Shown: one piece after another, positions 31,352-35,344 of the stretch
How positions within the stretch are numbered: the first letter of the stretch is position 1
Layout: each line of letters starts with the position of its first letter
Assembly: GCA_026989095.1 (NCBI GenBank)
Contig: JALSKA010000188.1
Coordinates: forward strand, 1-52,954
Length of the DNA stretch: 52,954 nt
DNA from: Ardenticatenaceae bacterium
GTDB lineage: Bacteria; Chloroflexota; Anaerolineae; Ardenticatenales; Ardenticatenaceae
Direction: 5' to 3'
Translations under genes and position numbers: made by a program
Notes under the pieces: generated by a model
What the model saw: only the letters and a program-made list of their open reading frames with translations
Databases searched by the model: none
What the model was told of the DNA's origin: nothing

Positions 31352-31942
31352 TCAGCTCGACTCTTCTCCGTGCATCCACGTTTGGACGAGAGCCGCCGCC
31401 TGTTCCCAGCCGGCCACACGTCCGCCAAACCCTCGGCGGAAACGCTCGGCGTCACGGCGGGACTCGAAGGCCAAAGCGGTGGGCACACAGCAGAGCTCCA
31501 CGTCGGGCCCCACGAGGTAGGTGGCCTGATGGGCGCTCACCGTGCGGCCGGTGAGAAAGTCCGGGACCACGGCGGCCACGATCTCCTCGCCGTGAAGGGC
31601 CAACGACCAGAGCCCACAGTGGGTACAACAGGTGCGCTTCGTCTCCCCACTGCGCAGGTGGAGCGTCATGCCCGTGCGCCCGTCAGGCATGTGAGCGCAC
31701 ATGGGGCACTCGCGTGGCTCACGGGGAGCGGAGGGCACAGCTCCGCCGCGAACTTTGCGCAACAGCCCGCGCTCCGCCAAGGCGTTCAGGTCACGGTGGA
31801 CGGTCATCGGCGAGACCTGGAGCTCACGGCTCAACTCGGCCACCGTGACGCGGCCTCGCTGGGCCAGGAGTTCCAAAATGTGCCGGTGTCGCTCCGCGGG
31901 CAGCATGTGCCCCTTCTCCGCCCCCTTCCGAGTGCCGGACAT
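31352..31942 (-). CDS. DeoR-type HTH fused to NosL-like domain; candidate copper-responsive regulator
   Basis: This 196-residue protein has a DeoR-family winged helix at about 14-66 (RHILELLAQRGRVTVAEL, SPMTVHRDLNALAERGL). The second part (about 75-190) lacks the DeoR sugar-phosphate domain. It matches the NosL pattern instead: C79PMC82, then T-C-C-T-H-C (Cys105, 106, 109), VSAHQATYLVG, and ALAFESRRDAERFRRGFGG. NosL proteins bind Cu(I) outside the cytoplasm. This one has no signal peptide and is joined to a DNA-binding domain. Seven cysteines suggest metal or redox sensing. It heads the copper operon, preceded by GGAGGAGGGG. Confidence 0.85.
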   Translation of the reverse strand: MSGTRKGAEKGHMLPAERHRHILELLAQRGRVTVAELSRELQVSPMTVHRDLNALAERGLLRKVRGGAVPSAPREPRECPMCAHMPDGRTGMTLHLRSGETKRTCCTHCGLWSLALHGEEIVAAVVPDFLTGRTVSAHQATYLVGPDVELCCVPTALAFESRRDAERFRRGFGGRVAGWEQAAALVQTWMHGEESS

Positions 31943-32087: not shown

Positions 32088-32138
32088 CTCTAACACCCCT
32101 CTAACGCACCTTTAGTAGCCCTCCAGTGAGCTTCTAAC
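32088..32138 (+). promoter_or_regulatory. Array of five 11-bp-phased CTCTAAC heptamers upstream of first hsp20
   Basis: Heptamers CTCTAAC (32088), CTCTAAC (32099), CTTTAGT (32110), CTCCAGT (32121) and TTCTAAC (32132) are separated by exactly 4 bp each, fitting YTYYARY. A -10-like TACTTT (32149-32154) lies 10 bp beyond the last unit, where no -35 box is seen. The geometry is that of tandem sites for a PhoB/OmpR-type winged-helix activator. No CIRCE or HAIR element is present. Confidence 0.7.
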
Positions 32139-32216
32139 AGGCCACGCTTACTTTAGAAGGCGTGAAGGCGGAGCAAGGGCGAGAAAATCGAGCCAACGAG
32201 TTGAGGAGGTGAGACG

Positions 32217-32663
32217 ATGACGATCTCCCGCTGGGATCCGTTCCGCGAGCTGGTGAACCTGCGCGAGGCGATGGACCGCCTCTTCGAGGACGCGTTCGTG
32301 GTGCCGCGCCGCACGGAGCTTCGCGCCGAGGCCATCTACCGCCTGCCTGTGGACGTGTACGAGACGGGCGATGAGTACGTGGTCGAGGCGGTGATCCCCG
32401 GCATTCCCGTGGACAAGATCAACATCGAGTTCCGGGACAACACGCTCTACATTTCGGGCGAACTGCCCTACGTGGAGCACGAGGGCGCCACGTACCACCT
32501 CCGGGAACGCTGGTACGGCCGCTTCCAGCGCACGCTGACCTTCCCGACGGCCATCGACACCAACAAGATCGAGGCCACGCTGGAGAACGGCGTGCTGCGT
32601 GTCCACCTGCCCAAGGCGGCCGAGGCGCGGCCCAAGCAGATTCGCGTCAAGGCCGTGCGCTAA
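32217..32663 (+). CDS. Hsp20/alpha-crystallin small heat-shock protein (copy 1)
   Basis: This 148-residue ATP-independent holdase has the alpha-crystallin domain (about 45-140): LPVDVYETGDEYVVEAVIPG, GATYHLRERWYGRFQRTL and the conserved ENGVLRVHLPK. The N-terminus (WDPFRELVNLREAMDRLFED) is amphipathic. GAGGAGGTGAG precedes the ATG. Downstream it has a hairpin, and a second hsp20 follows; the C-terminal halves are nearly identical. A C-terminal I-x-I/V motif (IRVKAV) is present. Confidence 0.95.
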   Translation: MTISRWDPFRELVNLREAMDRLFEDAFVVPRRTELRAEAIYRLPVDVYETGDEYVVEAVIPGIPVDKINIEFRDNTLYISGELPYVEHEGATYHLRERWYGRFQRTLTFPTAIDTNKIEATLENGVLRVHLPKAAEARPKQIRVKAVR

Positions 32664-32676
32664 TGGCGTCACAGAG

Positions 32677-32712
32677 GGCCGGGAGCCTGTGCTTGCTCCC
32701 GGCCTTCCCCCT
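32677..32712 (+). terminator. Terminator-like hairpin after first hsp20
   Basis: GGCCGGGAGC (32677-32686) and GCTCCCGGCC (32695-32704) form a perfect 10-bp stem with an 8-base loop, followed by TTCCCCCTCT. Confidence 0.65.
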
Positions 32713-32721
32713 CTGGCCCAG

Positions 32722-32761
32722 CTCTAACAACTTTCTAGCAACCCTCCAACGCGACTCTAAC
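32722..32761 (+). promoter_or_regulatory. Array of four 11-bp-phased CTCTAAC heptamers upstream of second hsp20
   Basis: CTCTAAC (32722), TTCTAGC (32733), CTCCAAC (32744) and CTCTAAC (32755) have exact 4-bp gaps. Compared with the last four units of the first array, heptamers agree at 22 of 28 positions, every difference being a transition. The gaps agree at only 5 of 12. TAGAAA (32768-32773) could be the -10; a separate TTGTCA-17-GATAGC pair lies at 32778-32806. Confidence 0.7.
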
Positions 32762-32852
32762 AGCCCCTAGAAATTCTTTGTCAGTGGAATTGCACCGGTG
32801 GATAGCCGCACGTGTTGCGCAAGATCATCTCGGTGGAAAGGAGGTGAGGCGT

Positions 32853-33305
32853 ATGACCTTGGCCCGCTGGGATCCGTTCCGCGAGATGGTGAGCTTGCGT
32901 GACGCGATGGACCGCCTCTTCGAGGAGTCCTTCATCCTGCCGCGCCGGTTGTTCGGCGACGTGTGGAGCAGCACGGTTTACCAGCTTCCGGTGGATGTCT
33001 ACGAGACCGGCGATGAGTACGTGGTCGAGGCAGTGATTCCGGGCATTCCCGTGGACAAGATCAACATCGAGTTCCAGAACGGCGCTCTGACCATTTCGGG
33101 CGAAGTGCCGCGCACCGAACACGAGGGCGCCACGTATCACCTGCGCGAGCGGTGGTACGGCCGCTTCCAGCGCACGCTGACCTTCCCGACGGCCGTGGAC
33201 GCCGACAAGATCGAGGCCACGCTGGAGAACGGCGTGCTGCGCGTCCACCTGCCCAAGACGGCCGAGGCGCGGCCCAAGCAGATTCGCGTCAAGGCCGTGC
33301 GGTGA
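32853..33305 (+). CDS. Hsp20/alpha-crystallin small heat-shock protein (copy 2)
   Basis: This 150-residue paralogue of the upstream gene has the same alpha-crystallin domain. It differs mainly in the N-terminal region (ESFILPRRLFGDVWSS) and a few domain residues. Long stretches are identical to copy 1 even at the DNA level, pointing to recent duplication or gene conversion. GGAGGTGAG precedes the ATG at 32853. The divergent N-termini may set different oligomers or clients. Confidence 0.95.
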   Translation: MTLARWDPFREMVSLRDAMDRLFEESFILPRRLFGDVWSSTVYQLPVDVYETGDEYVVEAVIPGIPVDKINIEFQNGALTISGEVPRTEHEGATYHLRERWYGRFQRTLTFPTAVDADKIEATLENGVLRVHLPKTAEARPKQIRVKAVR

Positions 33306-33398: not shown

Positions 33399-33692
33399 AT
33401 GAAGATTCAGCCCTTGCACGACCGTGTGCTGGTTCGTCCCATTGAGCAGGAAGAGGTCACGCCCAGCGGCATCATCCTGCCCGAGACGGCCAAGGAGAAG
33501 CCGATGGAGGGCGAGGTGATCGCCGTCGGGCCGGGAGCCTTGCAGGAGGATGGCACCCGCCGGCCCCTCGACGTGCAGGTCGGCGACCGGGTCATCTACG
33601 CCAAGTACGCCGGCACGGAGATCAAGAACGGGGACAGCAAGCTGTTGCTCTTAAAGGAAAGCGACATTCTGGCAAAAGTCGTGGAAGGCTAA
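33399..33692 (+). CDS. groES: Co-chaperonin GroES
   Basis: This 97-residue Cpn10 subunit caps the GroEL ring. It has [14 protein letters not shown] at the N-terminus, a mobile loop with [15 protein letters not shown], and [24 protein letters not shown] at the C-terminus (quoted as its two halves [10 protein letters not shown] and [14 protein letters not shown]). GGAGGAGGTG precedes the ATG. groEL follows after 23 bases. No CIRCE is found in the upstream gap. Confidence 0.97.

Positions 33693-33709: not shown

Positions 33710-35344
<1,635 letters not shown>

Follow-up and report, generated by a model that had tools for sequence, protein, structure and literature searches.

Phased 11-bp heptamer arrays upstream of hsp20 genes as putative class-wide heat-shock operators in Anaerolineae

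INTRODUCTION

What controls a pair of neighbouring hsp20 genes that are each preceded by a tandem array of heptamers in exact 11-bp phase? The genes lie in a stretch of 52,954 nucleotides (the window), which named relatives place in an Ardenticatenaceae MAG of the class Anaerolineae, phylum Chloroflexota. Heat-shock control in bacteria is mostly exerted by alternative sigma factors or by repressors (HrcA, CtsR, HspR). The initial annotation of this sequence proposed an unusual mode for the two genes, in which the arrays are tandem sites for an activator of the winged-helix (PhoB/OmpR) type and the heptamers are held by selection. Neither the array element nor the control of heat shock in this group is described in the literature searched, most subscription papers being outside its scope.

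RESULTS

Two phased arrays in the window

Direct reading of the sequence recovered every heptamer at its reported position and the exact 11-bp period of both arrays (Table 1). The units of array 1 are CTCTAAC (32088), CTCTAAC (32099), CTTTAGT (32110), CTCCAGT (32121) and TTCTAAC (32132–32138), and those of array 2 are CTCTAAC (32722), TTCTAGC (32733), CTCCAAC (32744) and CTCTAAC (32755–32761). When units 2–5 of array 1 are paired with units 1–4 of array 2, the heptamers are identical at 22/28 positions, all six mismatches are transitions, and the gaps agree at 5/12 positions, which reproduces exactly the figures first reported. The 4-bp spacing of the heptamers also stands, but the gap is not free sequence, as its first base is a purine in 9/9 window units. 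Proximity to a candidate −10 box, another of the original claims, holds for array 1 (TACTTT at +10 bp); array 2 shows only a weak match (AATTCT).

Matches to a three-unit pattern (≤2 mismatches) number 6 in the window, where 0.05 are expected, and every shuffle gave fewer. In the 3.29-Mb genome, the exact three-unit pattern finds three arrays only, and the reversed control finds 0. The two window arrays are real and not the product of chance.

Table 1. Genes and regulatory features of the hsp20–groESL region (positions in the window)
Feature	Position	Strand	Remarks
Array 1, five heptamers (YTYYARY)	32088–32138	+	11-bp period, purine after each; proposed operator of hsp20-1
Candidate −10 of array 1, TACTTT	32149–32154	+	starts exactly 10 bp past last heptamer
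hsp20-1	32217–32663	+	148 aa; PF00011
Degenerate unit CTCTGGC	32711–32717	+	fifth unit, in phase ahead of array 2
Array 2, four heptamers	32722–32761	+	11-bp period, purine after each; proposed operator of hsp20-2
Expected −10 position of array 2, AATTCT	32772–32777	+	weak match; placed by the class-wide distance rule
hsp20-2	32853–33305	+	start taken at ATG 3' of GGAGGTGAGG
groES	33399–33692	+	downstream of hsp20-2; without own array or CIRCE in the window
groEL	33716–35344	+	served as query

The two Hsp20 proteins are 80% identical, and groES is a possible read-through target from hsp20-2. In agreement with the initial annotation, neither the CIRCE inverted repeat (TTAGCACTC-N9-GAGTGCTAA) nor the HAIR inverted repeat (CTTGAGT-N7-ACTCAAG) was found in the window with 3 mismatches allowed, and HAIR was rejected on this ground. 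A gene for a DeoR-type helix-turn-helix protein (31352–31942, minus strand) runs divergently from hsp20-1, and an ORF of SCO1-like appearance comes next on that strand. The C-terminal end of the DeoR-type protein matches NosL weakly, and the domains of this protein led us to reject it as a heat-shock regulator.

Arrays elsewhere in the genome

A search of the window's genome with YTCTARYR(N3) ×3, allowing 3 mismatches, gave 17 matches and 0 for the reversed control. The arrays precede both window hsp20 genes, a third hsp20 together with a MerR-like gene (contig C49), dnaK (C158) and a DUF2630-like gene (C140), and two further, weaker places lie beyond these named targets. The dnaK array has TATAAG 10 bp past its last unit.

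The array on C49 (G000:C49:7101-7141, L406) belongs to a 119-aa MerR-like protein encoded directly upstream of the third hsp20. The same protein is found at L081 in genome G002, where the copy has a weak PF13591 match, and it is possibly a CbpM- or HspR-like co-regulator within the regulon. The third array of the genome (G000:C140:13350-13390, L001) has four units and stands before the gene of a 74-aa protein with a sub-threshold resemblance to DUF2630 (E 0.0014). Small ORFs of this kind also follow arrays in G001 and G005.

Distribution and target genes across the class

With one mismatch allowed, 199 genomes of the class yielded 206 pattern matches in 57 genomes, compared to 8 matches for the reversed pattern. 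Most arrays from this class-wide listing were fetched and the next gene was read. Pfam assignments for 64 first genes, a set that includes loci reached via hsp20, gave 30 HSP20, 8 HSP70, 4 Clp_N, 2 GrpE and 2 Zn_peptidase_2. When the hsp20-reached loci were left out and only purine-type arrays found by pattern alone were considered, 40/54 stood before a chaperone or protease gene (16 hsp20, 10 dnaK, 4 clpB, 3 lon, 2 grpE, 2 Zn-peptidase, 1 groES/EL, 1 ftsH and 1 site-2 protease), compared to 5/26 for pyrimidine-type arrays. The targets of the purine-type arrays are those of a heat-shock regulon, namely chaperones and ATP-dependent or related proteases.

In named genomes reached by the Hsp20 protein alone, roughly half of the sequences upstream of the gene outscore 99.9% of shuffles. 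Loss of the arrays upstream of hsp20 orthologues in relatives had been put forward as a refutation; we looked for it and found arrays in the same genus, the same family and many other families. The suggested search upstream of chaperone genes in this genome and its relatives likewise bore out the proposal, with arrays also before dnaK, clpB, grpE, lon, groES and ftsH. Among the named genomes of Dehalococcoidia, Thermogemmatispora and other phyla, the array is mostly absent upstream of hsp20. By every comparative test available, the array is real, conserved and functional, and this sequence evidence makes it very probable that it serves as a heat-shock operator conserved across the class Anaerolineae.

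Two variants of the array were seen. In Anaerolineales, the regions before hsp20 (L032, L205–L239) carry CGCTTGC gttt TTTTAAC gcag, a derived version of the array, and after it a stretch resembling GCGTTTTAAATTAA, which suggests that the operator has changed within this order. In other class genomes, a second array type (L096–L098, L102, L103, L106, L108, L129, L131, L135) shares the TTCTAAC core, the 11-bp phase and the TANNNT at +10 and mostly has C or T after the heptamer. It precedes genes for glycosyltransferases, exosortase, UbiA/UbiD, RadC and an OmpR-type response regulator (L108), and is probably the regulon of a paralogous regulator.

HrcA is present in 168/199 genomes and CIRCE (≤2 mismatches) in 172/199, and the window's genome has a CIRCE site near hrcA. 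As HrcA and classical CIRCE are retained, the arrays form a second circuit rather than decayed CIRCE. HrcA was rejected as the binder of the arrays on two grounds: classical CIRCE sites of its own exist in the class, and some genomes with arrays give no HrcA match.

Anatomy of the operator

Over 291 units from the class, the consensus is Y, T (95%), C (96%), T (96%), A (93%), A/G and Y, then a purine (97%) and three loose bases. Given the purine at the first gap position in 97% of these units, the repeating element is YTCTARYR+N3. Its heptamers are conserved, while spacer positions 10–11 are near random. Upstream of hsp20 in named genomes outside the genus, 37/42 exact-unit pairs are separated by 11, 22, 33, 44 or 55 bp. 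Exact units number 59 on the coding strand versus 13 on the other, indicating direct rather than inverted repeats.

The distance to the putative −10 is fixed. TANNNT starts exactly 10 bp past the last heptamer in 63/100 arrays (44/73 purine-type, 19/27 other), compared to at most 6 in either array group at any other offset up to 23 bp. Taking this box as the −10 would place the final pair of 11-bp units at about −40 to −19. The hallmark of the pho box is 11-bp direct repeats in place of the −35. The arrays show the features of OmpR/PhoB-type tandem operators: direct repeats, a period of ∼11 bp, and replacement of the −35 with the −10 at a fixed distance. A close parallel is the AfsR box, with two 11-bp repeats, the upstream one at −40 to −30, and a centre at −29.5, where OmpR-type domains engage sigma region 4 (PMC10936776). 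Taken together, units at the −35, a fixed −10 and the match to the AfsR box suggest that the element is best read as an activator site replacing the −35.

A candidate regulator

Which protein might bind such a site? The window's genome has 16 Trans_reg_C matches, and only three response-regulator groups are common to it and three compact array-bearing genomes. We favour the regulator encoded at G000:C141:14546-15301, which has a receiver domain (PF00072, 2e-33) and a Trans_reg_C domain (PF00486, 3.5e-23) and whose nearest solved relatives are KdpE, RpaA, MtrA and RegX3. Its orthology is sharp among 41 relatives, with full-length orthologues at ∼300 bits or more versus <240 for paralogues. An orthologue is present in 140/199 genomes, nearly always as a single copy, and the DNA-recognition helix is nearly invariant across 50 loci.

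Gene neighbourhoods link this regulator to heat shock. In its own genome, the gene of a GAF–PAS–HisKA–HATPase kinase ends ∼30 bp upstream, beside htpX; across the class, a kinase of the GAF/PAS family adjoins the regulator in only 22/50 loci. A heat-shock or protease gene lies within 2.5 kb in 8/34 loci fetched before linkage guided the choice (11/50 overall, where 3 of the 16 later loci were picked for a known nearby array), compared to 0/20 for orthologues of the PhoB-like response regulator L146. The regulator adjoins dnaK in G034, G067 and G027, with an array between the two genes in G034 and G067. Other neighbours are hsp20 (G033, G017, G048, G073), Lon (G007), a LonB-like gene (G018) and a Zn-peptidase (G039). 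In the regulator contexts, high-scoring arrays are almost confined to positions before chaperone genes. Counting against the candidate, no array was found before the regulator's own gene.

At the scored hsp20 loci, regulator-positive genomes had an array before hsp20 or before the preceding hsp20 gene, and G011, G028 and G035, without the regulator, had none. Across the 199 genomes, the regulator is present in 48/57 genomes with strict arrays versus 92/142 of the others (Fisher p=0.006). This association is only moderate, which we attribute to the many genomes that retain the regulator and whose arrays have drifted beyond the reach of the pattern. The main counter-example is G015, where arrays stand before hsp20 (L340, L018) and no match to the regulator exceeds 191 bits, in a MAG with a completeness rating of 100%. 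Several less complete MAGs with arrays likewise lack the orthologue, namely G002, G030 and G032 (79–86% complete), G032 having a fragment at a contig edge; so does G079.

Other proteins were considered and rejected as the binder. L146 and the BaeR-like response regulator L149 show orthology that is blurred over the class, and the 20 loci of L146 orthologues lack a heat-shock neighbour within 2.5 kb. The FHA-winged-helix protein is absent from G050, which has a dnaK array. On the sequence comparisons, the arrays are probably bound by the OmpR-family regulator G000:C141:14546-15301.

DISCUSSION

The geometry of the arrays suggests how they might work. Several copies of a regulator with an OmpR-fold winged helix would line up head to tail along one face of the DNA, each on its own 11-bp unit. 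The final two units would sit where sigma would contact the −35, with the −10 starting 10 bp further on, so that the bound regulator could recruit sigma-70 RNA polymerase. At target promoters without a −35, such recruitment would amount to activation. The candidate regulator would be phosphorylated by the GAF/PAS kinase encoded upstream, the presumed signal being heat or misfolding. The tandem winged-helix activator proposed in the initial annotation thus gains support from the strict 11-bp phase, the fixed 10-bp distance to the −10 and the linked OmpR-family regulator. We regard the explanation as a whole, class-wide heat-shock operators read by an OmpR-fold activator that is most likely the candidate regulator, as rather more plausible than otherwise.

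The best-surviving alternative keeps the operator and the regulon and changes the OmpR-fold binder, which could be the L158/L157 response regulator, an FHA-winged-helix protein (L154, L155) or a SARP-type protein (L159, L160). There is no shortage of such proteins, given the 16 Trans_reg_C matches, and SARPs bind the same geometry, with SARP-like ORFs L159 and L160 present in the window's genome. The recognition helix LRLYI-x-YLR of L158/L157 is very similar to that of the candidate, a related response regulator in G018 (L108) has a TTCTAAC array before its own gene, and the array-bearing G015 is without the favoured regulator. The four-genome comparison narrows the field, however, to three response-regulator groups common to all, with G050 lacking the FHA-winged-helix protein. 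Crisp orthology singles out the favoured group, which also has heat-shock neighbours, compared to 0/20 loci within 2.5 kb for the group examined alongside it. We consider a different binder rather unlikely.

Could the arrays instead be repressor operators, with several bound copies of a winged-helix or some other protein closing the promoter and leaving it only on heating? Repression is common in bacterial heat-shock control, and the arrays overlap the −35 position. However, a −10 at fixed spacing with an array in place of the −35 favours an activator. HrcA has its own classical CIRCE elsewhere, arrays occur in genomes without an HrcA match (G018, G085), and the window holds neither CIRCE nor HAIR. 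We consider repression improbable. Might the arrays have no regulatory role and owe their similarity to simple tandem duplication, or to common descent of the two hsp20 genes? The proteins are 80% identical, and their upstream regions may share ancestry. This reading is hardly credible and in fact refuted: heptamers are conserved with near-random spacers over 291 units, and the same arrays, at a fixed −10 distance, stand before genes as unrelated as dnaK, lon, clpB and grpE in many families. Selection on the heptamers, as originally argued, is in keeping with this.

The activator reading invites comparison with known systems. HrcA/CIRCE and HspR/HAIR control the same kind of genes as the arrays, but their sites are inverted repeats bound by repressors, whereas the arrays are direct repeats on one strand. 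The candidate shares its receiver and Trans_reg_C domains with PhoB, OmpR and KdpE, although the operator sequence (YTCTARYR) and the regulon content differ from theirs. A two-component input to heat-shock genes is likewise found in cyanobacteria, where Rre1 is a NarL-type regulator. There, the Hik34–Rre1 system controls htpG, groESL and other heat-shock genes, with negative control by the kinase reported there and no 11-bp array described in the passages concerned (PMC3264485). In Myxococcus, the orphan response regulator MXAN_4468 at groEL2 resembles the candidate in adjoining a chaperone gene; unlike the proposed activator, it controls that gene negatively, partly through HrcA (PMC9040617).

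The closest architectural match comes from Streptomyces. SARP boxes are 11-bp repeats that overlap a poor −35, with the 3' repeat close to the −10 (PMC10936776), and SARP/AfsR repeats are described as heptameric in a further report (PMC5930380). Like the arrays, these boxes are arranged head to tail with an 11-bp period, over a poor −35 and just upstream of the −10. The arrays differ from them in sequence, in the number of units (3–6 versus two in the AfsR box) and in the distance from the heptamer end to the −10 (10 bp versus a stated 8 bp). Array targets are heat-shock genes rather than the antibiotic genes of SARPs, and the candidate belongs to the response regulators and lacks a BTA domain.

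A broader proposal has, in our estimate, about an even chance of being correct. A dedicated kinase–regulator pair would be the master activator of the cytosolic heat-shock regulon (hsp20, dnaK, grpE, groESL, clpB, lon, ftsH and other proteases) throughout the class, acting via arrays of 3–6 units in parallel to HrcA/CIRCE. Surface-polysaccharide, exosortase and other genes would be under a paralogous regulator, whose near-identical site has a pyrimidine after TTCTAAC.

The OmpR-type tandem operator architecture is already known; its proposed use for a class-wide heat-shock regulon would be new. If the proposal is true, a two-component activator acting on tandem 11-bp operators throughout a class of Chloroflexota would represent another solution to heat-shock control. 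Given an exact operator (YTCTARYR per 11 bp, −10 at +10), a list of target genes and a specified candidate regulator, protein-damage sensing in these mostly uncultured bacteria becomes directly testable.
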